A stretch of DNA of 20,031 bases, taken from positions 1-20,031 of IMG/VR virus record IMGVR_UViG_3300045999_004969. One strand, given 5' to 3'. Positions 1 to 6,970 of this stretch are shown here, piece by piece. The notes beneath the pieces were generated by a model that worked only from the letters and a program-made list of their open reading frames with translations, was not told the origin of the DNA and made no database searches. Source of the DNA: a virus. The translations under genes and the position numbers were made by a program. The first letter of the stretch is position 1. Each line of letters begins with the position of its first letter.

Positions 1-26
1 AAGATATCAATCACTTACATAATCTT

Positions 27-89
27 AAATAACAACAAGGAACAATATTACTCACAATATCGAGGGTTAAAAGTTCCTTGCTGTTGTTT
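27..89. repeat. Long imperfect inverted repeat beyond the leftward gene
   Basis: Arms 27-43 and 73-89 pair over 17 positions with one A-C mismatch and one G-U wobble, enclosing a 29-nt spacer. Neither side is followed by a T-run, so it does not look like an intrinsic terminator. It lies just past the terminator of the 117-residue gene and could be an RNA processing or 3'-protective stem, or an operator for whatever lies to the left of the window. The pairing is seen directly; the function is unknown. Confidence 0.5.
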
Positions 90-98
90 AAAAATATA

Positions 99-131
99 TA
101 AAAAAGATTGGAAGGTTATACCTTCCAATCT
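99..131 (-). terminator. Intrinsic terminator of the 117-residue leftward gene
   Basis: A perfect 12-bp stem (105-116 with 120-131) has a 3-nt loop and, on the minus strand, is followed by a run of six T and then further T/A. The upstream arm of the stem codes for the last residues of the minus-strand protein, and its TAA stop (116-118) sits at the loop. Translation to the stop would therefore cover the arm, so coding and termination signals are merged. Confidence 0.88.
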
Positions 132-469
132 ATACAAGTGGCGTCAGCCATGGCAACTGGTATAAGCCAAGCGGAGCTGGCTGGCACCAGTTTGCCATCT
201 TTCTCCACTTCATAGGTTGAGATACTTACCTTGAAAAGGTCAGTATCCAACTCTATTTCTTTGCCTTCGGCAAATTTAGTGGCTTTATTAGCTTTCTTTG
301 ATGCCCATTTGGCATCATCATCAAACAAAATCCACCAACTTCTTTTGTTGGATTTTGTTGCCATTTCACCACCAAACTCAAAATCTCCACTACTCCCAGT
401 GGAAAGTTTAAACTTTCTAAACCCTTGTTTAGAAACTTCATTTTTCAAGATTTTTACTTTAATTCTCAT
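116..469 (-). CDS. Conserved-looking hypothetical protein, 117 aa
   Basis: I do not recognise this family. It is a small soluble protein without signal peptide or membrane segment. It begins MRIKVKILKNEV, has a Gly/Ser-rich turn at about residues 25-34, and a middle stretch rich in Lys, Asp and Trp (SWWILFDDDAKW). Its C-terminal half alternates hydrophobic and polar residues, suggesting beta strands. A small beta-barrel, possibly nucleic-acid binding, would fit but is only a guess. The start at 469 follows an A/T-rich leader (AATAAAAT just before ATG) typical of Bacteroidota phages, with no Shine-Dalgarno. It is transcribed away from the structural genes and ends in a strong terminator whose stem overlaps its last codons. 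A hairpin (491-508) lies in its presumed leader. Longer ORFs on the opposite strand here have no support and were treated as shadows. Confidence 0.72.
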   Translation of the reverse strand: MRIKVKILKNEVSKQGFRKFKLSTGSSGDFEFGGEMATKSNKRSWWILFDDDAKWASKKANKATKFAEGKEIELDTDLFKVSISTYEVEKDGKLVPASSAWLIPVAMADATCIDWKV

Positions 470-490
470 ATTTTATTTAATTAATTGTGC

Positions 491-508
491 AAAGCCCGGT
501 AGGGCTTT
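491..508 (-). promoter_or_regulatory. Hairpin in the leader of the 117-residue gene
   Basis: A perfect 7-bp stem (491-497 AAAGCCC with 502-508 GGGCTTT) and a 4-nt loop lie 22 nt upstream of the start codon at 469. Its shape resembles an intrinsic terminator, but no clear T-run follows on the minus strand. It may attenuate or protect the mRNA, or end transcription coming from the right. Confidence 0.45.
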
Positions 509-517
509 GTTAGGAGG

Positions 518-554
518 GTGGGGGACTTTTGATTTGGCTATCCATTCCCCCCAC
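518..554. repeat. G-tract/C-tract stem-loop
   Basis: GTGGGGG at 518-524 pairs perfectly with CCCCCAC at 548-554 across a 23-nt loop. Such a G/C block is conspicuous in this AT-rich genome and stands directly beside the A/T tracts at 558-587. Possible roles are a transcription start architecture, a replication signal or an RNA structure; nothing here decides between them. Confidence 0.4.
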
Positions 555-557
555 ACA

Positions 558-587
558 TTAAAAAAATTTTTTAAAAAATTTTAAAAA
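558..587. promoter_or_regulatory. Alternating A/T tracts
   Basis: Runs of A7, T6, A6, T4 and A5 follow one another without interruption. Phased A/T tracts bend or melt easily, so this may be an UP-like element for the leftward 117-residue gene or a DNA-unwinding element. Only the sequence pattern is seen; the role is inferred. Confidence 0.35.
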
Positions 588-614
588 GTGTAAAGTAAAA
601 TACTACTTTTCTGT

Positions 615-645
615 AAAATAAAAAGGTAGTAACTAAGTTACTACC
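615..645 (-). terminator. Intrinsic terminator downstream of the 65/44-residue gene pair
   Basis: A perfect 9-bp stem (625-633 with 637-645) has a 3-nt loop and is followed on the minus strand by TTTTTATTTT (624-615). It would end the leftward transcript that carries the 65- and 44-residue genes, about 150 nt past the last stop codon. Confidence 0.8.
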
Positions 646-718
646 CCTGATTGCATATGCTATACAATGCCTCTTAGATTCTATTTTATTGTACCTAACT
701 TATTGAGGTAATGAAACT

Positions 719-730
719 TACCTATAGGTA
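719..730. promoter_or_regulatory. 12-bp perfect palindrome, possible operator
   Basis: TACCTATAGGTA reads the same on both strands. A further AGGTA copy stands at 706-710, so the same pentamer occurs three times within 25 bp in alternating orientation. This is compatible with a binding site for a dimeric regulator or with alternative RNA pairings. It is a weak call because short palindromes are common in AT-rich DNA. Confidence 0.25.
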
Positions 731-796
731 TATGAATACTTAAATTTATAATTAAGTTATTTAATTAATTATACGAAAAATAAATGATATTATATT

Positions 797-931
797 TTAT
801 CTACCCTGTCCAGCATAAGGTTTCTTATACCTCTTACTCCCCTTAGCCAAGCTATCTTTCTTAGCATGTCTACCAAGAGAAACTTTAGGCTTCCTCTTGA
901 AGGTGTTCTCCGTTACTTTGTTCTTTGCCAT
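797..931 (-). CDS. Small very basic protein, 44 aa
   Basis: This short ORF reads MAKNKVTENTFKRKPKVSLG at its start and ends KKPYAGQGR. Sixteen of 44 residues are Lys or Arg (plus one His) against three acidic ones, with the pattern GRHAKK...SKRYKKPYAGQGR in the second half. From memory, similar short Lys/Arg-rich proteins with a GRHAK...YxGQGR-like tail occur in crAss-like and other Bacteroidota phages; I cannot verify this here. Such composition suggests nucleic-acid or ribosome binding, but no function is established. Its start lies inside the end of the 65-residue gene, with an out-of-frame overlap of 47 nt, so the two are probably translated from one mRNA. No signal peptide or membrane segment is present. 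Confidence 0.7.
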   Translation of the reverse strand: MAKNKVTENTFKRKPKVSLGRHAKKDSLAKGSKRYKKPYAGQGR

Positions 932-1082
932 AATTATCTAGTAATTCTTTTATTCTTTGTAATGCTTGTTGAGATCCTTGATCTCCCTTTATTGCATCTA
1001 GAAAATTCTTATTCTTTTTAACAAAAAGATCATACTCTTTCTTTTGCAATTTTTCCATTTTTCTCCTGTATTGTCTATTCAT
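885..1082 (-). CDS. Small hypothetical protein, 65 aa
   Basis: This is a short, charged, probably all-helical protein. Residues 1-30 (MNRQYRRKMEKLQKKEYDLF and on) are strongly basic, followed by helices rich in Lys, Glu, Leu and Gln. I do not recognise it. A longer reading that starts further upstream is unlikely because it would run through the divergent promoter into the opposite gene. Two in-frame starts are possible: ATG at 1082, and ATG at 1058, which is preceded by AGGAGA, an unusually good Shine-Dalgarno for this genome. The MNRxYRRK opening looks like a natural N-terminus, so 1082 is preferred. It is the first gene of a leftward unit with the 44-residue gene. Confidence 0.66.
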   Translation of the reverse strand: MNRQYRRKMEKLQKKEYDLFVKKNKNFLDAIKGDQGSQQALQRIKELLDNYGKEQSNGEHLQEEA

Positions 1083-1112
1083 AAATATTTTATATATATT
1101 TGCAAGTATAAT
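1070..1112 (+). promoter_or_regulatory. Bacteroidota-type promoter of the rightward operon
   Basis: TATATTTG at 1095-1102 matches the Bacteroides -7 consensus TAnnTTTG. ATTG at 1070-1073 stands 21 nt upstream, the usual distance of the -33 TTTG element. A TATAAT sequence follows at 1107-1112. The first rightward gene starts at 1123. The 40-bp region also separates divergent genes, so a leftward promoter is expected here too, but I see no clear minus-strand match. Confidence 0.55.
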
Positions 1113-1122
1113 ACGAATAAAT

Positions 1123-1521
1123 ATGAAAACAATAAAATTAAAATTACTAGTATTTGAGGATTCACTAAAAGATTCTAAGGGAAAGAGCATAACACATGAT
1201 ATTGCAGATATGCTAAGAGAGATTGGAGAAGAAGTTATAGAGGGAGAAAAACTTTCTTATAAGGATATTGTATTTGCCTTTAATAGCTTACCTCCTTTTA
1301 TCCTTATTGGTAACCAAACTTCCCCCTTAACTGAGCATACTTTTACTATTATGCAGGGCTTAACTGAGGATATTATGTTTAACTTCCTAGAAACTCCTGA
1401 GGAAATAATGGCCCTCATTAATGAAGCTGAGGAAAAACACCTTTTTCAAGAACTTAACTCTATACAACTTAAGATACCTTTTAATAATGGAGAAACAGAG
1501 ACTAATAGCAGTGAGGGGTGA
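1123..1521 (+). CDS. Hypothetical protein, 132 aa, first gene of the structural operon
   Basis: The family is not recognised. The protein is acidic overall and opens with a probable beta strand (MKTIKLKLLVFED). Then come helices with alternating Glu and Ile/Leu, a hydrophobic patch PPFILIGNQT at about residues 64-73, and a polar tail ending NSSEG. There is no signal peptide or membrane segment. It begins 15-20 nt after the proposed promoter and overlaps the next gene by 35 nt out of frame. Heading a run that leads to the terminase suggests a role in late expression or packaging, but that is from position only. The start follows an A-rich leader (GAATAAAT before ATG). Confidence 0.72.
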   Translation: MKTIKLKLLVFEDSLKDSKGKSITHDIADMLREIGEEVIEGEKLSYKDIVFAFNSLPPFILIGNQTSPLTEHTFTIMQGLTEDIMFNFLETPEEIMALINEAEEKHLFQELNSIQLKIPFNNGETETNSSEG

Positions 1522-1825
1522 TACCTACCTCAACTATATGAGGGTAATGTCACTAAACTTTAACCTTACTGAGACAGAAATAAGAGTTGCTGCAGAGCTA
1601 CTTAGAGAATATGAGGGGTTTCTTATACAAAGTACCCCAACTATTGCATGGGAATTGCTAAATTCTCCTAAAACTAACAAAAAAATTAAGGATAAACTCT
1701 CTCTTAAGGATGCTTCTTACAACAACATTAAGGCATCCCTTAAGAAAAAGGGTCTCTTAACTACTTCTGGCTTTAGAAATGGTATTTACCTAGCAGATAT
1801 TAAATTTATCTTTAGTGAAACTTAG
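1487..1825 (+). CDS. Small protein with helix-turn-helix-like character, 112 aa
   Basis: Residues 26-90 look helical and resemble a winged-helix or LuxR-like DNA-binding fold. A first helix LTETEIRVAAELL is followed, about 50 residues on, by DASYNNIKASLKKKGLL, which has the spacing of a recognition helix and a basic turn. A short beta segment (GIYLADIKFIF) ends it. Possible roles are a late-gene regulator or the small terminase subunit, since it lies three genes before terL. Neither is proven. The ATG at 1487 is chosen because an upstream in-frame ATG at 1421 would add residues that merely mirror the preceding gene. It overlaps the genes on both sides by 35 and 11 nt. Confidence 0.66.
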   Translation: MEKQRLIAVRGDTYLNYMRVMSLNFNLTETEIRVAAELLREYEGFLIQSTPTIAWELLNSPKTNKKIKDKLSLKDASYNNIKASLKKKGLLTTSGFRNGIYLADIKFIFSET

Positions 1826-2042
1826 TCTACTTATTAAAGAAGTTGCTGATAATCTTCAACTTCCGTACAAGGATGTTAATACTGCAATAAAATTTAGCTT
1901 CTTGACTACTGGAAAGGAGATGAAGGACTCTACTCCTAAGATAACTGTAAGATATCTTGGTACTTTTATTAAAAAAATGAATAAAAGAGAAACCTATAAA
2001 AACTACTTAAGAATAAAGAATGAGAATAATAGAGATAAATAA
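1815..2042 (+). CDS. Short HU/IHF-like protein, 75 aa
   Basis: The N-terminal half (LLIKEVADNLQLPYKDVNTA) resembles the helical half of HU/IHF family subunits. KITVRYLGTFIKK resembles the conserved strand before the DNA-binding arm (typically LGNFG or similar). The usual family length is about 90-100 residues, so this copy is short and seems to lack a full arm. crAss-like phages are reported to encode IHF-like proteins, which supports the call. It would bind and bend phage DNA, or act in packaging together with the terminase. The start is GTG at 1815, overlapping the previous stop; it overlaps the next gene by 23 nt. Fold assignment is by eye. Confidence 0.5.
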   Translation: MKLSLLIKEVADNLQLPYKDVNTAIKFSFLTTGKEMKDSTPKITVRYLGTFIKKMNKRETYKNYLRIKNENNRDK

Positions 2043-2538
2043 TGCTACTGTAACCCTGCATGAGGCTTGCCTCTTAGTACCAGAGTTTAAGGTAGTATAT
2101 GAGAAGTATAAAAAGGATAATGGTATTCAGGCTTTTAAATATATCTATCTATTTGCTGATTATAACTCTCCTTATAGAGCTTATGATGAGGAACAAAAGA
2201 TTGCAGCACTGGAGAAAGATCTAGAAATCTCTTTAACACCAGAACTTAAGAGTGCAATTGAGAAGTATAAAGAACTTAATTACACTTTTAATATGAGGTA
2301 CTTACAAGATGCACTTCATGCTGCCAATCAAACTAGGGCATACTTTAGAAATGTAGATTATGCTCTCCTAGACTCTAGAGGCAACCCTGTTTATAAGGTT
2401 AAGGAGGTTACAGATGCACTTAAGAATACTCTACAAGTAATTACAACCTTAGAGGGCTTAAAAGAAAAGGTAGAATCTGAGAATGTAGCACAGAATAAGG
2501 TTAGAGCAGGAGCAAAGATTAACAAATGGGAGCAATAA
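2020..2538 (+). CDS. Hypothetical protein directly before TerL, 172 aa
   Basis: The protein is predominantly helical and charged. It has an N-terminal segment HEACLLVPEFKVVYEKYKKD, a Tyr-rich region (YIYLFADYNSPYRAYDEEQK, around residues 41-60), and a C-terminal probable coiled coil (about residues 125-160) ending KINKWEQ. I do not recognise a named domain. Its place next to terL makes it a candidate small terminase subunit or packaging factor, which I cannot tell apart from an unrelated head-assembly protein. It starts inside the preceding gene (23-nt overlap) and its end overlaps the terL start by 13 nt, indicating translational coupling. Confidence 0.75.
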   Translation: MRIIEINNATVTLHEACLLVPEFKVVYEKYKKDNGIQAFKYIYLFADYNSPYRAYDEEQKIAALEKDLEISLTPELKSAIEKYKELNYTFNMRYLQDALHAANQTRAYFRNVDYALLDSRGNPVYKVKEVTDALKNTLQVITTLEGLKEKVESENVAQNKVRAGAKINKWEQ

Positions 2539-4574
2539 GAAATAAGAATGGTATATGGATTAATACTGAGCCCTTTAGAGAGGCCGGTAATAGATTTGTA
2601 ACTACTGGTAGATATACTGATGCTCTTCCTGGGACCCTAGAATTTGATAGATTTTGGGATCAGGAGTACACTAGATGTATGGAGGGGTATGAGGTATCTG
2701 GAGCTAAGATAACTGGTAAACATTACTTCTATCTAAATTACTGTCTCATTAATAAAGTAAATCTTACTGATGATAATAGAGGTAAAAGAAAAGTATCTAA
2801 GGGGTTTCTCCTTCCTGACTTTTGGGATGGGGACTTTGAGTACTTCTGGTTTCTAGAGATTGCAGAAAATGGTATAGACCCTTCCTTGATTCCAAGCTTA
2901 CACCTAAATAACAAGGTCTTATGGACAGAGGGAGGAAAGAGTATGATAGTAGGTAAGGCAAGAAGAAGAGGATTCTCTTATAAGAATGCTGCTACTATTG
3001 CTTGGGAATATACCTTCATTAAGAAATCCCTCACACTTGTAGCTGCTTATGATAAGAAGTATCTATTCTCTGAGATTGGTATCTTTACTAAGGTGATGGA
3101 TATGCTCAATCACCTCAACACCAATTGCCCAGCTTTTAAGAGAAGCAGGCTTGTTAATAAGATAGCTGATGGGCGCATTAAGAGTGGTTATATAGAATAT
3201 ACTGATGATGGTACAGAACTCTCTAAAGGACACCAAAGTGCTATTACTTGTGTATCCTTTATGAATAATCCTGATGCTGCAAGGGGAGCTGATGCTAGTA
3301 AAATTATTGTAGAAGAAGCAGGTACCTTCATTAATTGGAATGAGAGTTACTATGCTATGGAACCTTCTATTAAGGCTGGTGATTATTATACTGGAATGAT
3401 GATTGTCTTTGGTACTGGTGGTGATATGGAAGCTGGTACTATTGATTTTGCAGAAATGTATTATAACCCAGATAACTATAATATGATGCCTTTTGAGAAT
3501 GTATGGGATGAAGATGGATTACCTGAGAAGAGTACTGGTTTCTTTTTTCCTATGTATCAAAACTATGAGGGGGCTTATGATAAGGAAGGTAACTCTGATG
3601 TACCTAAGGCTAAAGAACTCTTAACAAAACTCAGAGAAAATAAGAAAGCTAAAGCTAAAAGTCCTGAGGAGTATCTTAGACATACTACTGAGTATGCTTG
3701 GTCTCCTGCAGAAGCCTTTCAAATTATCTCTAATAATGTATTTCCTACAGAAGACTTGCGTAAGCAGCTAGGCTTATGTCAAACTAAGGATGAGTATAAA
3801 GGTATCTGTGGTAGAATGTCTTATGATGAGAGGGGTAATCCAGAATTTATTCCCGATTTATCCCTCAGACCTTTAGAGTATAAAGATAAGAGCTTAGATA
3901 AAAGTGGTTGTATACAGATTTGGGAAAAACCAACCCCAGGTACATCGTACAACTTATATACTGGAGGACTAGATCCCTATGCTACAGATGAAGCTAACTA
4001 TAGTGAGTCTCTTGGTTCACTGTTTATCTTTAAAAGATATGCTATCGGGGAAGAAACCCATGATCTTCCAGTTGCAGAATATACAGGCAGGCCACAGAAT
4101 TTCAAAGAATTCTATGACCAATGTATTCTCCTAATTGAGTACTATAACGCAAGCTGTTTATATGAGAATAACATCAACAATTTCAAAACTCACTGTGAGA
4201 ATAAACATAAATTACATTTATTATCCAGAACTCCAAGCATTGTCAAGGCTGCATCTAACCAACACTCAAATACCTATGGAATCAGAGTTGTCGGCAATTC
4301 ATATTCATCTGTTAAGAATGAACTTATCACTTATGTAAATAACTGGTTAAGAGAGGAGTATGAAGATGGTAAGAGTAATGTATATAAAATTAAGTCTATA
4401 GGACTCTTACAAGAACTTATTACTTATAATAGTAGAGGTAACTTTGATAGATTTATATCTTTCTCTTTATCTCTTATTAGAAGTATAGAATTAACTAGAA
4501 TACAACCTGCTTTTAAAGACTCGTATAAGAGGAATGGCAGAGATTTCTTCTCATCCAAATTATTTAGTAACTAA
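2526..4574 (+). CDS. terL: Terminase large subunit (DNA packaging ATPase/nuclease)
   Basis: This is the motor that cuts concatemeric DNA and pumps it through the portal. Residues 140-151 (MIVGKARRRGFS) form the atypical Walker A-like loop used by many large terminases. KIIVEEAG at 259-266 is Walker B with the catalytic Glu pair, and VFGTGGD at 294-300 is the ATPase coupling motif. The RNase H-like nuclease shows Asp483 in GGLDPYATDE, Glu547 in CLYENN and a plausible third acid, Asp641, in NFDRFISFSL. At 682 residues it is within the range of phage terminases. It overlaps the upstream gene by 13 nt and the portal start by 1 nt (TAATG). Codon choice changes over about 4040-4330, in the nuclease domain. 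The identity is secure; nuclease residue assignment is by eye. Confidence 0.93.
   Translation: MGAIRNKNGIWINTEPFREAGNRFVTTGRYTDALPGTLEFDRFWDQEYTRCMEGYEVSGAKITGKHYFYLNYCLINKVNLTDDNRGKRKVSKGFLLPDFWDGDFEYFWFLEIAENGIDPSLIPSLHLNNKVLWTEGGKSMIVGKARRRGFSYKNAATIAWEYTFIKKSLTLVAAYDKKYLFSEIGIFTKVMDMLNHLNTNCPAFKRSRLVNKIADGRIKSGYIEYTDDGTELSKGHQSAITCVSFMNNPDAARGADASKIIVEEAGTFINWNESYYAMEPSIKAGDYYTGMMIVFGTGGDMEAGTIDFAEMYYNPDNYNMMPFENVWDEDGLPEKSTGFFFPMYQNYEGAYDKEGNSDVPKAKELLTKLRENKKAKAKSPEEYLRHTTEYAWSPAEAFQIISNNVFPTEDLRKQLGLCQTKDEYKGICGRMSYDERGNPEFIPDLSLRPLEYKDKSLDKSGCIQIWEKPTPGTSYNLYTGGLDPYATDEANYSESLGSLFIFKRYAIGEETHDLPVAEYTGRPQNFKEFYDQCILLIEYYNASCLYENNINNFKTHCENKHKLHLLSRTPSIVKAASNQHSNTYGIRVVGNSYSSVKNELITYVNNWLREEYEDGKSNVYKIKSIGLLQELITYNSRGNFDRFISFSLSLIRSIELTRIQPAFKDSYKRNGRDFFSSKLFSN
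4522..4528 (+). promoter_or_regulatory. CGTATAA element inside the end of terL
   Basis: CGTATAA stands 45 nt upstream of the portal start and is one of seven plus-strand copies in the window. Here it lies in coding sequence (ASer-Tyr-Lys in frame), so it could be chance. Confidence 0.2.
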
Positions 4575-6970
4575 TGATTCCACCACTCCCAGAACAACGA
4601 GTACCTCAGAAAACTAAGGAAACCTTAGATTGGCAGAAGAAATGCATTATTGCACTAGTAGGTAGAGCATACTCTAACCTATCTGGATCTCGCACTTCTA
4701 GAGAGGCTAAGCAAATTAATTATGATCTCTTCAACTCTATTGTTAATATAGAAGATTTCTCATATGTTACTAAGCCTTATGGTGTTGATATCCATGATAG
4801 TATAGGTAATCTTCCTGCTAACTTTCAAGATTATAATATTGTGCGCAGCTCTGTTCTGCAACTGGTGGGAGAAGAACTTAAGAGGCCATTCTCATACAAA
4901 GTAGTATCTGTAGCTGGTGAAGGTTTTAATCAGTATATTGCTGATAAAAAAGAAGCATTAGAGCATGCTTATATGTCTATCTTAAGACAAAAATTAGGAG
5001 AAGAAGTACAAGTAGAAGACCCTGCTGAGGTAGAAGAAAGATTTACAAACTCTTACATTAATAGTGTAGAAATTACTGCTAATAAATTACTTTCTCATTT
5101 GGAAAGATCTCTTAAACTTAAGAATCACTTTATTAGAGGTTTTCAGAATGCACTTACTTGTGCAGAGGAAGTATATTATGCAGGTATCTTTAATAATGAA
5201 CCAGTTCTAATTCCTTGGAACCCAATACACTTTGAGTGTGATAAAAATCAAGACTCTCTCTTTATTGAGGATTGTGATTGGGCAGTAGGTAGAATGTGGT
5301 TAGATAGAGGACAAATACTAGATTGGTTTGGAGACAGACTGACAGATAAAGATAAAGAAAACTTAAGAAGTGCAGAAATATTTAATGCTACAGCATCATA
5401 TGGACAATCTCCAGAAGTCATTACAACAACATACCCACATTACAATTACACAGGTACCAAAATTCTCATGCAACTTGTCACATGGAAAAGTGAGAAGAAG
5501 ATTGGGACTGCAACTTACCTTGATCAAAATAACCAAGTACAAAAGAAAGTTGTTGATGAAAGTTTCAAGATTCCTGAAGAACTTAAGGGGGAAATTACAG
5601 TTGAATGGAACTGGATTCCAAGAACATGGATTGGGGTGCAAGTTGGACCAACAATCTTCTTTGCTTACGAGAGTCCCTATCAATTCAACACAGTGGATAA
5701 CCCATACAAGTGTAAACTTCCATTTATTGGTAGAATCTACAACAACATCAACAGCAAACCAACCTCACTTGTTGATCTCATTAAGCCCTATCAATACCTC
5801 TACAACATCATCTGGTACAGACTAGAGTTGGAATTTGCTAAGGCAAAGGGCAAGAAGTTTGTAATGGATATTGCTCAAATCCCAAAGAGTAAGGGATGGA
5901 CAGTAGAGCAATGGATGTATTACTTTGATACTCTGGGTATTGCATTTGTAAACTCAGCTGAAGAAGGTAGAGAAGGAGATCCTACTTCTGTATCTAAATT
6001 TAACCAGTTTACTGGGATAGATATGACTCTCTCTAACTCTATTAATGGATACTTCTCAATGCTTTCTAAGATTGAAGATTCTGTTGAGAATATTACTGGT
6101 ATCTCTAGACAAAGAAAAGGACAAATTAATACCTCTGAGACAATGGGAGGTGTAGAAAGATCTATAGTACAGAGTAATGCTCTTACTGAGATATATTTCC
6201 ATGAACATTCTATGGTTAAGGAGAAAGTCTTAGAACATCTTTTAGAAATTGCTAAGATTGCATACTCTACTAGTGAACATGGAAAATTAGTATTTGATGA
6301 GTTTAGTAGAAATATCTTAAATACTAAATCTCTTATTAATACAGATTTTGGTTTATATGTTTCTGATAGTGTTAAAGATAATGGTATCTTAGAACAACTT
6401 AAAGGGCTTGCTAAAGAAGGTATTTCTTCTGGAACTCTACAATTCTCTAACCTTATTGCTCTTCTTAAAACTAACTCTATTGCTGAAGTTGAAGAATCAA
6501 TTAAGAAAGCTGAAGATAGAAAACAAAAAATTCAAGAACAGCAGAATGCTACTCAACAACAACAGATTGAGAGTAATGAAAGGATTGCTAGAGAAAGAAT
6601 GGATAGAGAAGAAAATCAAAAACAACTTGACAGGGAGGCAAGACTTAGGGAAGCTGAGATTAGAGCTCTTGGAACTGTTGGTATGAGTAATCCAGATATT
6701 AATCAAAATGCTATTCCTGATGTTATGGAACAAACTAAGGTAGCACTTCAACAATCTAAGCAACAGTTTGAGCAAGTTGAGAAAAAACAAAAGATGGAAC
6801 TTGAGAAAACTAGAATGCAGATAGAACAAGAAATGCAAGCTAGAGAGAATGAACAACAGAATAGAGTTCATGCTGATAGAATGAAACTTGAGAATAATAA
6901 ACTTGCTCTTAAGAAACAAGAAATTGATCTTAAGAAAAGAGCACTTAAGTATAAACCTAAAAGTAAATAG
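4574..6970 (+). CDS. Portal protein, 798 aa
   Basis: The portal forms the ring at the capsid vertex through which DNA enters and leaves. Recognised from its place directly after terL, its length, and a portal-like core. Residues about 190-265 contain RGFQNALTCAEEVYYAGIFN and WNPIHFE, typical of the wing region. Around 505-560, TGISRQRKGQ and the following helices fit the stem region. From about residue 635 to the end it is a long Gln/Glu/Lys/Arg-rich coiled coil, which would form the barrel or crown. The start ATG shares one base with the terL stop. A segment at about 5370-5850 uses clearly different codons (mostly CCA/CCC for Pro, AAC for Asn, ACA for Thr) while the protein stays in frame. 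It ends in TAG, so this stop is not reassigned. Confidence 0.88.
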   Translation: MIPPLPEQRVPQKTKETLDWQKKCIIALVGRAYSNLSGSRTSREAKQINYDLFNSIVNIEDFSYVTKPYGVDIHDSIGNLPANFQDYNIVRSSVLQLVGEELKRPFSYKVVSVAGEGFNQYIADKKEALEHAYMSILRQKLGEEVQVEDPAEVEERFTNSYINSVEITANKLLSHLERSLKLKNHFIRGFQNALTCAEEVYYAGIFNNEPVLIPWNPIHFECDKNQDSLFIEDCDWAVGRMWLDRGQILDWFGDRLTDKDKENLRSAEIFNATASYGQSPEVITTTYPHYNYTGTKILMQLVTWKSEKKIGTATYLDQNNQVQKKVVDESFKIPEELKGEITVEWNWIPRTWIGVQVGPTIFFAYESPYQFNTVDNPYKCKLPFIGRIYNNINSKPTSLVDLIKPYQYLYNIIWYRLELEFAKAKGKKFVMDIAQIPKSKGWTVEQWMYYFDTLGIAFVNSAEEGREGDPTSVSKFNQFTGIDMTLSNSINGYFSMLSKIEDSVENITGISRQRKGQINTSETMGGVERSIVQSNALTEIYFHEHSMVKEKVLEHLLEIAKIAYSTSEHGKLVFDEFSRNILNTKSLINTDFGLYVSDSVKDNGILEQLKGLAKEGISSGTLQFSNLIALLKTNSIAEVEESIKKAEDRKQKIQEQQNATQQQQIESNERIARERMDREENQKQLDREARLREAEIRALGTVGMSNPDINQNAIPDVMEQTKVALQQSKQQFEQVEKKQKMELEKTRMQIEQEMQARENEQQNRVHADRMKLENNKLALKKQEIDLKKRALKYKPKSK

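Follow-up and report, generated by a model that had tools for sequence, protein, structure and literature searches.

What does a phage keep in the one long stretch where it has no gene? The window considered here is a whole IMG/VR record of 20,031 bases (IMGVR_UViG_3300045999_004969) from a crAss-like phage, and exactly 327 nt of it (positions 470–796) lie free of genes between neighbours bounded at 469 and 797, a conspicuous gap beside the other main-ORF gaps of at most 98 nt. The original prediction, made from the letters, treated the interval as a single element holding two GC-rich stems, A/T tracts, a palindrome, a promoter-like element and a terminator, and offered an early promoter region, a replication signal or an RNA locus as its role. 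Comparison with 16 relatives instead splits it into two modules, R and L, each with its own neighbours and inserts. We hold, with moderate confidence, that R is probably a self-contained minus-strand small-RNA unit and L the fixed promoter or leader of a swappable gene.

Two modules beside a divergence of gene direction

The packaging and structural arm of the window comprises the rightward genes from 1123 on, and the other arm begins with leftward genes below about 1081. The large terminase (TerL) matches phrog_6681; by tblastn, 157 phage records match it, and Flavobacterium phages of Fipvunavirus rank first among them with 35% identity. A tRNA search of the window found none. A terminase scan returned 42 loci, 34 of them at 91–99% identity within the matched part, and 16 of these loci reach the interval (L003, L005, L006, L009, L010, L013, L015, L016, L019, L020 and L023–L028). 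L010 ends inside the terminator P5, and L006 and L016 end further left. The alignment of module R (A1) has 16 rows including the window, L016 being omitted because it duplicates L015 in R; that of module L (A2) has 14 rows without L016, with L003 shortened on its 5′ side and L028 on its 3′ side.

The contrast in gap length is one between arms, and the short-gene arm that starts at 470–796 is rich in gaps in relatives. In the 88-kb relative G001 this arm has 14 gaps of at least 30 nt, totalling 3407 nt, within 17.4 kb, and in Flavobacterium phage FPSV-S29 the corresponding arm has annotated gaps of about 400–1100 nt. Stretches of about 400–1700 nt without a current CDS occur in the short-gene arm of crAss-like phages at FPSV-S29 82000–91708 (L116) and phi14:2 1278–1984 and 2904–4602 (L125), those of phi14:2 containing withdrawn gene calls. 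In the same arm of G001, tRNA-like sequences were recognized by eye at 79200–79950 (L082), inside a gap about 0.9 kb long.

When the window was compared with its relatives by BLAST, similarity often broke at about 615–620 and about 797. Six relatives (L003, L015, L016, L019, L020 and L026) have an extra gene of 106–130 aa between R and L, L027 has a convergent gene between the two halves, and several relatives carry inserts to the right of 797. The BLAST breaks and the separate inserts on either side argue for two elements rather than one (Table 1). Fold energies lay below those of shuffled sequences in both, with z of −3.43 for 470–600 (0 of 200 shuffles as low) and −2.43 for 618–796 (1 of 200).

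Seven relatives have a second RNA-like unit between R and L, on the minus strand, that was not found in the window. It is laid out as a TAnnTTTG box, a short stretch and a terminator with a conserved loop, AGTC(T/A)TAC, on a varying stem.

Table 1 Features of the interval and its surroundings, in window positions unless another record is named
Feature	Position	Strand	Remarks
Module R	618–796	minus	Covariance model R1 from 16 sequences; one match per record in the window and 16 relatives; neighbours differ
28-nt near-invariant block	766–793	minus	ATAATATCATTTATTTTTCGTATAATTA in the window; putative start site (promoter) of R
AT-rich dyad TATAATTAA-N9-TTAATTATA	747–773	none	747–755/765–773, 9 bp
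Hairpin P4	650–668	minus	7 bp, 3-nt loop
Intrinsic terminator P5	622–648	minus	Stem 12 bp, loop 3, T-run
Module L	about 470–600	minus	In 15/15 records reaching it, including the window; L016 partial
44-aa basic protein gene	797–931	minus	Usual, not constant, right neighbour of R
117-aa gene	116–469	minus	Slot behind L; own terminator at 131–105
Second RNA-like unit	L003:1270–1447, L019:3385–3562, L020:3358–3535, L023:3901–4078, L024:3196–3373, L027:283–460, L028:1205–1382	minus	
FPSV-S29 repeat	91599, 91482, 91223, 90706 and 87568 of the FPSV-S29 record	minus	

Module R as a candidate small-RNA unit

All 17 records that extend over R contain it, once each. The covariance model has 22 matches, namely the window, the 16 relatives and five overlapping loci of the same records. 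A pattern scan of IMG/VR recovered 16 contigs, all from this group. The 17 stretches recovered with a second pattern came from the same group again, except for L096, located within a gene of an unrelated phage. Three pattern matches in bacterial genome contigs contained no R by the covariance model, and the model had no match in the distant crAss-like loci L036–L039 and L041–L043 or in the FPSV-S29 TerL region (L092). DNA searches of nine records returned the same R place in each, besides matches of 19–28 nt elsewhere. Judged from its sequence, R makes a good candidate for a new family of phage small RNAs, as far as seen confined to one genus-level group.

From its 5′ side R runs through the 28-nt block, the AT-rich dyad, a middle of variable length, P4, and P5 with its T-run. 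Within the block, CGTATAATTA is invariant (16/16). Mean pairwise identity over 27 block columns in 14 loci is 0.856, against 0.746 for TerL third positions, where 3 of 654 windows reach it; set against all TerL positions the block is unremarkable, with 1047 of 1474 windows as conserved (16-row value 0.853). In each of six sequences scanned with a weight matrix of the block (three partial records besides the window, G001 and G003), R was the top match by a wide margin. The block was rejected as a repeated phage promoter, a single further moderate site being found, in G003 (16.5 against 37.0 for R). This site, TGAAGGTTAAATATTTTTCGTATAATTG at 48293 on the minus strand (L086), lies directly ahead of a small gene.

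Behind the CG of the block come about 40 nt of almost pure A+T. The predicted palindrome is present here as the 9-bp dyad, and 9 of 300 shuffles had one as long; across sequences the dyad alone is modest, with 1–31 of 300 shuffles as long. Relatives keep it in two arrangements, and column pair 32–38 is A-U in seven sequences, C-G in five and U-A in four. The middle of R has an optional GGTAA/TTACC hairpin; between it and P4, 10 of 16 sequences have GAATCTAAGARGC. The terminator was also correctly recognized: at 648–622 on the minus strand it is P5, conserved in relatives. Positions 1–3000 of the window hold nine terminator-like sites against 1.4 expected.

The promoter-like element fared less well. 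TGGACA-N17-TATCAT does exist at 812–784 and is the best match among the sigma-70-like sites in the first 3 kb of the window, but their number, 15 against 10.9 ± 3.0 expected, is near chance, and the arrangement occurs in 1 of 16 sequences. Its TGGACA falls within the end of the 44-aa coding sequence. TAnnTTTG is the Bacteroidota host-type promoter consensus; it is absent from the R block (columns 1–31 of A1), in which no known promoter type is recognisable. With neither a conserved sigma-70-like site nor a TAnnTTTG box to mark it, the start of R is a predicted one.

TAnnTTTG boxes are found elsewhere in the arm, in 4 of 14 gaps (1.5 in shuffles) and in 6 of 20 gaps (2.2 in shuffles). The host-type box TATATATTTGC stands at the divergence of G001 and ahead of inserted genes in G001 (72213) and L026. 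No 9-mer recurs in at least four arm gaps of G001, and only AAACAAAAA does so in G003. At the divergence point, TATATATTTGCAA boxes lie at about 1092–1107 in the window and at 71322 in G001, and the G001 palindrome ATATTTGCAAATAT found there could serve both directions.

RNAalifold applied to A1 returned P4 and P5 only, with 15 pairs, seven of them changed on both sides. In each stem 100% of cells are paired, and three pairs of P4 and four of P5 have changed on both sides. For P4, P5 and the dyad together, 96.0% of 349 cells are paired (24–45% in slid controls), and eight pairs and 30 cells are changed on both sides; the values for paired cells, both-side pairs and both-side cells were reached by 0, 3 and 0 of 500 shuffles. 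Further pair types numbered 15 against 13.9, not above chance (176 of 500 shuffles as high). Dyad cells are only 87.5% paired because 7 of the 16 sequences use the other arrangement, in which a 9-bp dyad encloses a longer loop. P4 arms are of four types, in 12, 2, 1 and 1 sequences, and type-2 P4/P5 arms occur in 3 of 16 (L013, L023 and L027); with so few arm types, the both-side changes represent few events.

Every non-Watson-Crick cell on the minus strand is G-U, 13 in P4 and 10 in P5, with A-C in 0 of 23, and on the plus strand the same 23 cells would each be an A-C mismatch. P4 and P5 therefore read as hairpins of a leftward RNA, and we favour such an RNA over a DNA-level hairpin on the strength of the G-U bias and the T-run. 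The expectation that stems would be conserved in relatives is thus borne out in the right half of the interval and fails in the left half, which has no consensus fold. The idea of an RNA locus is supported for the right half by its conserved hairpins, compensatory changes, terminator and strand signal.

No reading frame in R is conserved among the 16 rows. Leader peptides were rejected both in the block, where a 9-codon frame has its ATG in only 8 of 16 rows, and in P4, where ATG is present in 12 of 16 rows and the frame ends after seven codons in the window. A search for antisense targets of R, using 12- and 13-mers with at least three G or C, revealed no target: it gave one perfect complement of 12–13 nt each in the window, G001 and G003, at different places.

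The genes beside R vary. To its right lies the 44-aa gene in most records, a 92/75-aa gene in L015, L016 and L020, and other leftward genes in L023, L024 and L027, L023 being without the 44-aa gene; in L013 a rightward 82-aa ORF lies directly upstream. To its left lies L itself, a gene of the 106–130-aa family, the other RNA-like unit or the convergent gene of L027. R could be the 3′ untranslated end and terminator of a leftward operon made up of the 44-aa gene and its neighbour, with P4 and P5 merely ending the transcript. P5 would serve as an ordinary terminator, and the 44-aa gene stops directly before R in the window and most relatives, and within the block in L028, where the two overlap at the stop codon. 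We nevertheless think this unlikely: a different gene precedes R in L015, L016, L020, L023, L024 and L027, similarity among relatives begins at the block and not at the stop codon, and the L013 ORF points away, so that read-through from a leftward gene upstream should not account for R there. Because the neighbours differ and a divergent gene precedes it in L013, R would be expected to carry its own promoter.

As a small-RNA unit, R would be transcribed from a start at or just behind the 28-nt block, across the dyad and the variable middle, to an end at P5. The product would be a structured non-coding RNA of roughly 130–170 nt in the window. Most likely it would have a regulatory role for the phage and be made where the short-gene, early-type arm begins. 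Transcription, 5′ end, timing and regulatory role are all predictions from sequence.

P5 might alternatively be an attenuator within a leader, stopping early transcription until overridden by a phage protein, antiterminator pairing or the packaged RNA polymerase so that the genes to the left are expressed. It does lie upstream of L, and of the inserted 106–130-aa family in six records, and when several relatives are folded singly, the block pairs with the 5′ arm of P4. That pairing, however, has slipped out of register in L013 and has largely disappeared in L023. Behind P5 the gene varies and in L027 it is convergent, and the inserted genes of G001 and L026 have their own host-type box. An attenuator strikes us as improbable.

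Module L and an exchangeable gene slot

Module L is made up of AT tracts at about 558–596, a core GGATA...AGTCCCCC and a leader with a hairpin at 490–509. The A/T tracts had been predicted and are present; relatives keep the AT-richness, and the tracts themselves vary. The core motif reads GGGGGACT at 520–527 on the plus strand and AGTCCCCC on the minus strand, and the latter is invariant in A2 (14 rows), together with a few other letters. L was detected by pattern in 14 records including the window, and by eye in L026. A scan with the L pattern returned 29 stretches, 8 of them from this group, and no R accompanies the other 21.

Both GC-rich stems of the original prediction exist in the window, GTGGGGG/CCCCCCAC at 518–524/547–554 and CAAAGCCC/GGGCTTTG at 490–497/502–509. 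The second is exact only in the window and L005. The long GGGGG/CCCCC stem was rejected as a conserved structure, a 5′ G-run of at least five being found in 5 of 14 sequences including the window. RNAalifold on the 14 sequences (L003 and L028 rows shortened) gave a consensus of 0 pairs, which speaks against L as a structured, riboswitch-like leader RNA.

Behind L, a small leftward ORF starts 34–72 nt after AGTCCCCC (from the inner ATG where there are two). The proteins of this slot in 14 records form seven families that BLAST did not join at 1e-4: window/L005; L009/L015/L026; L023/L024/L028 with L025; L003; L019; L020; and L013, which L027 resembles by eye, the L027 ORF ending with its contig. 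A hairpin and T-run follow the stop of the slot gene in 10 of 14 records, as seen by eye. The 13 slot genes measured have a G+C content of 0.37–0.48, against 0.30–0.34 in three 20-kb stretches.

Ten slot proteins had no Pfam family above cut-off, and among them two PHROGs of unknown function were matched below 1e-3 (L003 and L005). The structural model of the window protein is poor (pLDDT 42.1), and that of the L023 type reaches a pLDDT of 84.5. Among solved structures, single-stranded DNA-binding proteins (SSBs) came first for the L023-type model but weakly (best Foldseek E 0.23, TM 0.18), and a VIA comparison with an SSB (Z 4.4, rmsd 4.2, 76 aligned) was within the range of unrelated folds; the best viral match was a crAss-like protein (E 0.036, TM 0.63). 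PF00436 (SSB) had no match in the records of five relatives, three of them partial, a search that divergent SSBs could escape, and the annotated SSB of Fpv2 had no tblastn match in G001 or G003. An SSB in the slot is no more than suggested by the models.

The best reading of L is as the fixed 5′ control region of an exchangeable, probably early, small gene. It would hold a start site and act in the transcription or translation of whichever gene occupies the slot. L stays while the genes change; that it contains a start site and works on the slot gene we infer. L shows that a slot in the short-gene arm can swap genes under one fixed control region.

FPSV-S29 (L117/L118, MK764449) has five copies of CAAAACCC[TC]CACT[TC]ATT, and in four of them a 17-mer is identical. 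All five lie on the same strand, confined to the 4 kb of leftward genes next to the divergence. As this crAss-like phage is in culture, the repeat offers a candidate motif for early start sites or leaders there, and two copies occur in each examined part of FpV4 and Fpv2. L looks like the FPSV-S29 early motif (CAAAACCCTCACTTATT) by eye; the best of 14 alignments was equalled by 49 of 400 shuffles, and the kinship was dropped because alignment scores were not above shuffles. The arms of cr50_1, cr6_1, PhiCrAssBcn23, G001 and G003 contain no 14-mer or longer three times, four of these five have 11–12-mers three times, and phi14:2 has one 14-mer three times, with two copies adjacent.

Position in the genome and known systems

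In both 88-kb relatives the cumulative GC skew is lowest at the divergence (71317 in G001, 79016 in G003) and peaks at the convergence point. R lies 0.7–0.9 kb from the minimum in G001 and 0.3–0.5 kb in G003, and the two modules taken together lie 0.3–1.4 kb from it. By analogy, the short-gene arm appears to be early-type, and the suggested early promoter region is plausible for R and L, both of which stand at its start.

R could also be a replication origin or primer unit, with the block as start site, the dyad as unwinding region and the terminated RNA priming or shaping initiation. A single copy per genome, a place within 0.3–0.9 kb of the skew minimum in both 88-kb relatives and the almost pure A+T that follows the block's CG are consistent with this. 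The switch of gene direction at the same place could alone produce the skew, however, which for that reason cannot separate an origin from transcription, and the compensated G-U pairs of P4 and P5, some 80 nt or more from the dyad in the window, point to an RNA function. We consider an origin doubtful.

A bolder version of the small-RNA and leader reading, to which we give little credence at present, would make the block and dyad the sole entry signal of the packaged crAss-type RNA polymerase, with replication perhaps also primed there; the R RNA would precede all others in infection, and L would be another fixed start site, serving a swappable gene with an anti-host or DNA-binding function. 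For G003, a PHROGs search with two complete ORFs and the C-terminal 2640 residues of a third, of 4712 aa, gave Dda-like helicase/DprA-like and structural matches and no polymerase.

N4 virion-polymerase hairpin promoters stand in several copies at early start sites. That P4 is a promoter of this kind for the packaged polymerase, a parallel raised in the original prediction, is very improbable, since P4 resembles them in stem size (7 bp) and 3-nt loop but belongs to a single-copy module, lies directly upstream of the terminator (its stem follows after six columns) and keeps its G-U cells on one strand, as an RNA would; nor does any motif recur in four or more arm gaps of G001, and only AAACAAAAA does in G003.

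PMC10770324 describes AT-rich promoters for the virion RNA polymerase of Thermus phage P23-45, with a motif at 14 of 23 start sites, and compares P23-45 polymerases with gp66 of crAss-like phi14:2, for which it cites a solved structure (PDB 6VR4). R is like the P23-45 promoters in having an AT-rich conserved block that heads an early-type region, and unlike them in that its block is single copy whereas their motif recurs (PMC10770324). The word 'promoter' is absent from the available parts of PMC10136315 and PMC11054128. Among the matches listed, the open-access literature had no paper dealing with either non-coding RNAs or start-site motifs in crAss-like phages.

In the primary origin of T7, a promoter is followed by AT-rich DNA. 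R resembles it in having AT-rich DNA behind a presumed phage start site, close to where an early-type region begins, and differs in the covarying hairpin and terminator that follow. Phage-encoded small RNAs with intrinsic terminators are a known kind. A search of 4227 Rfam families gave no match at gathering over the window and none at E 1 for 380–900, which sets R apart from known small RNAs; it is like the phage small RNAs in being short, non-coding and structured, with its own predicted start region and a terminator at its end.
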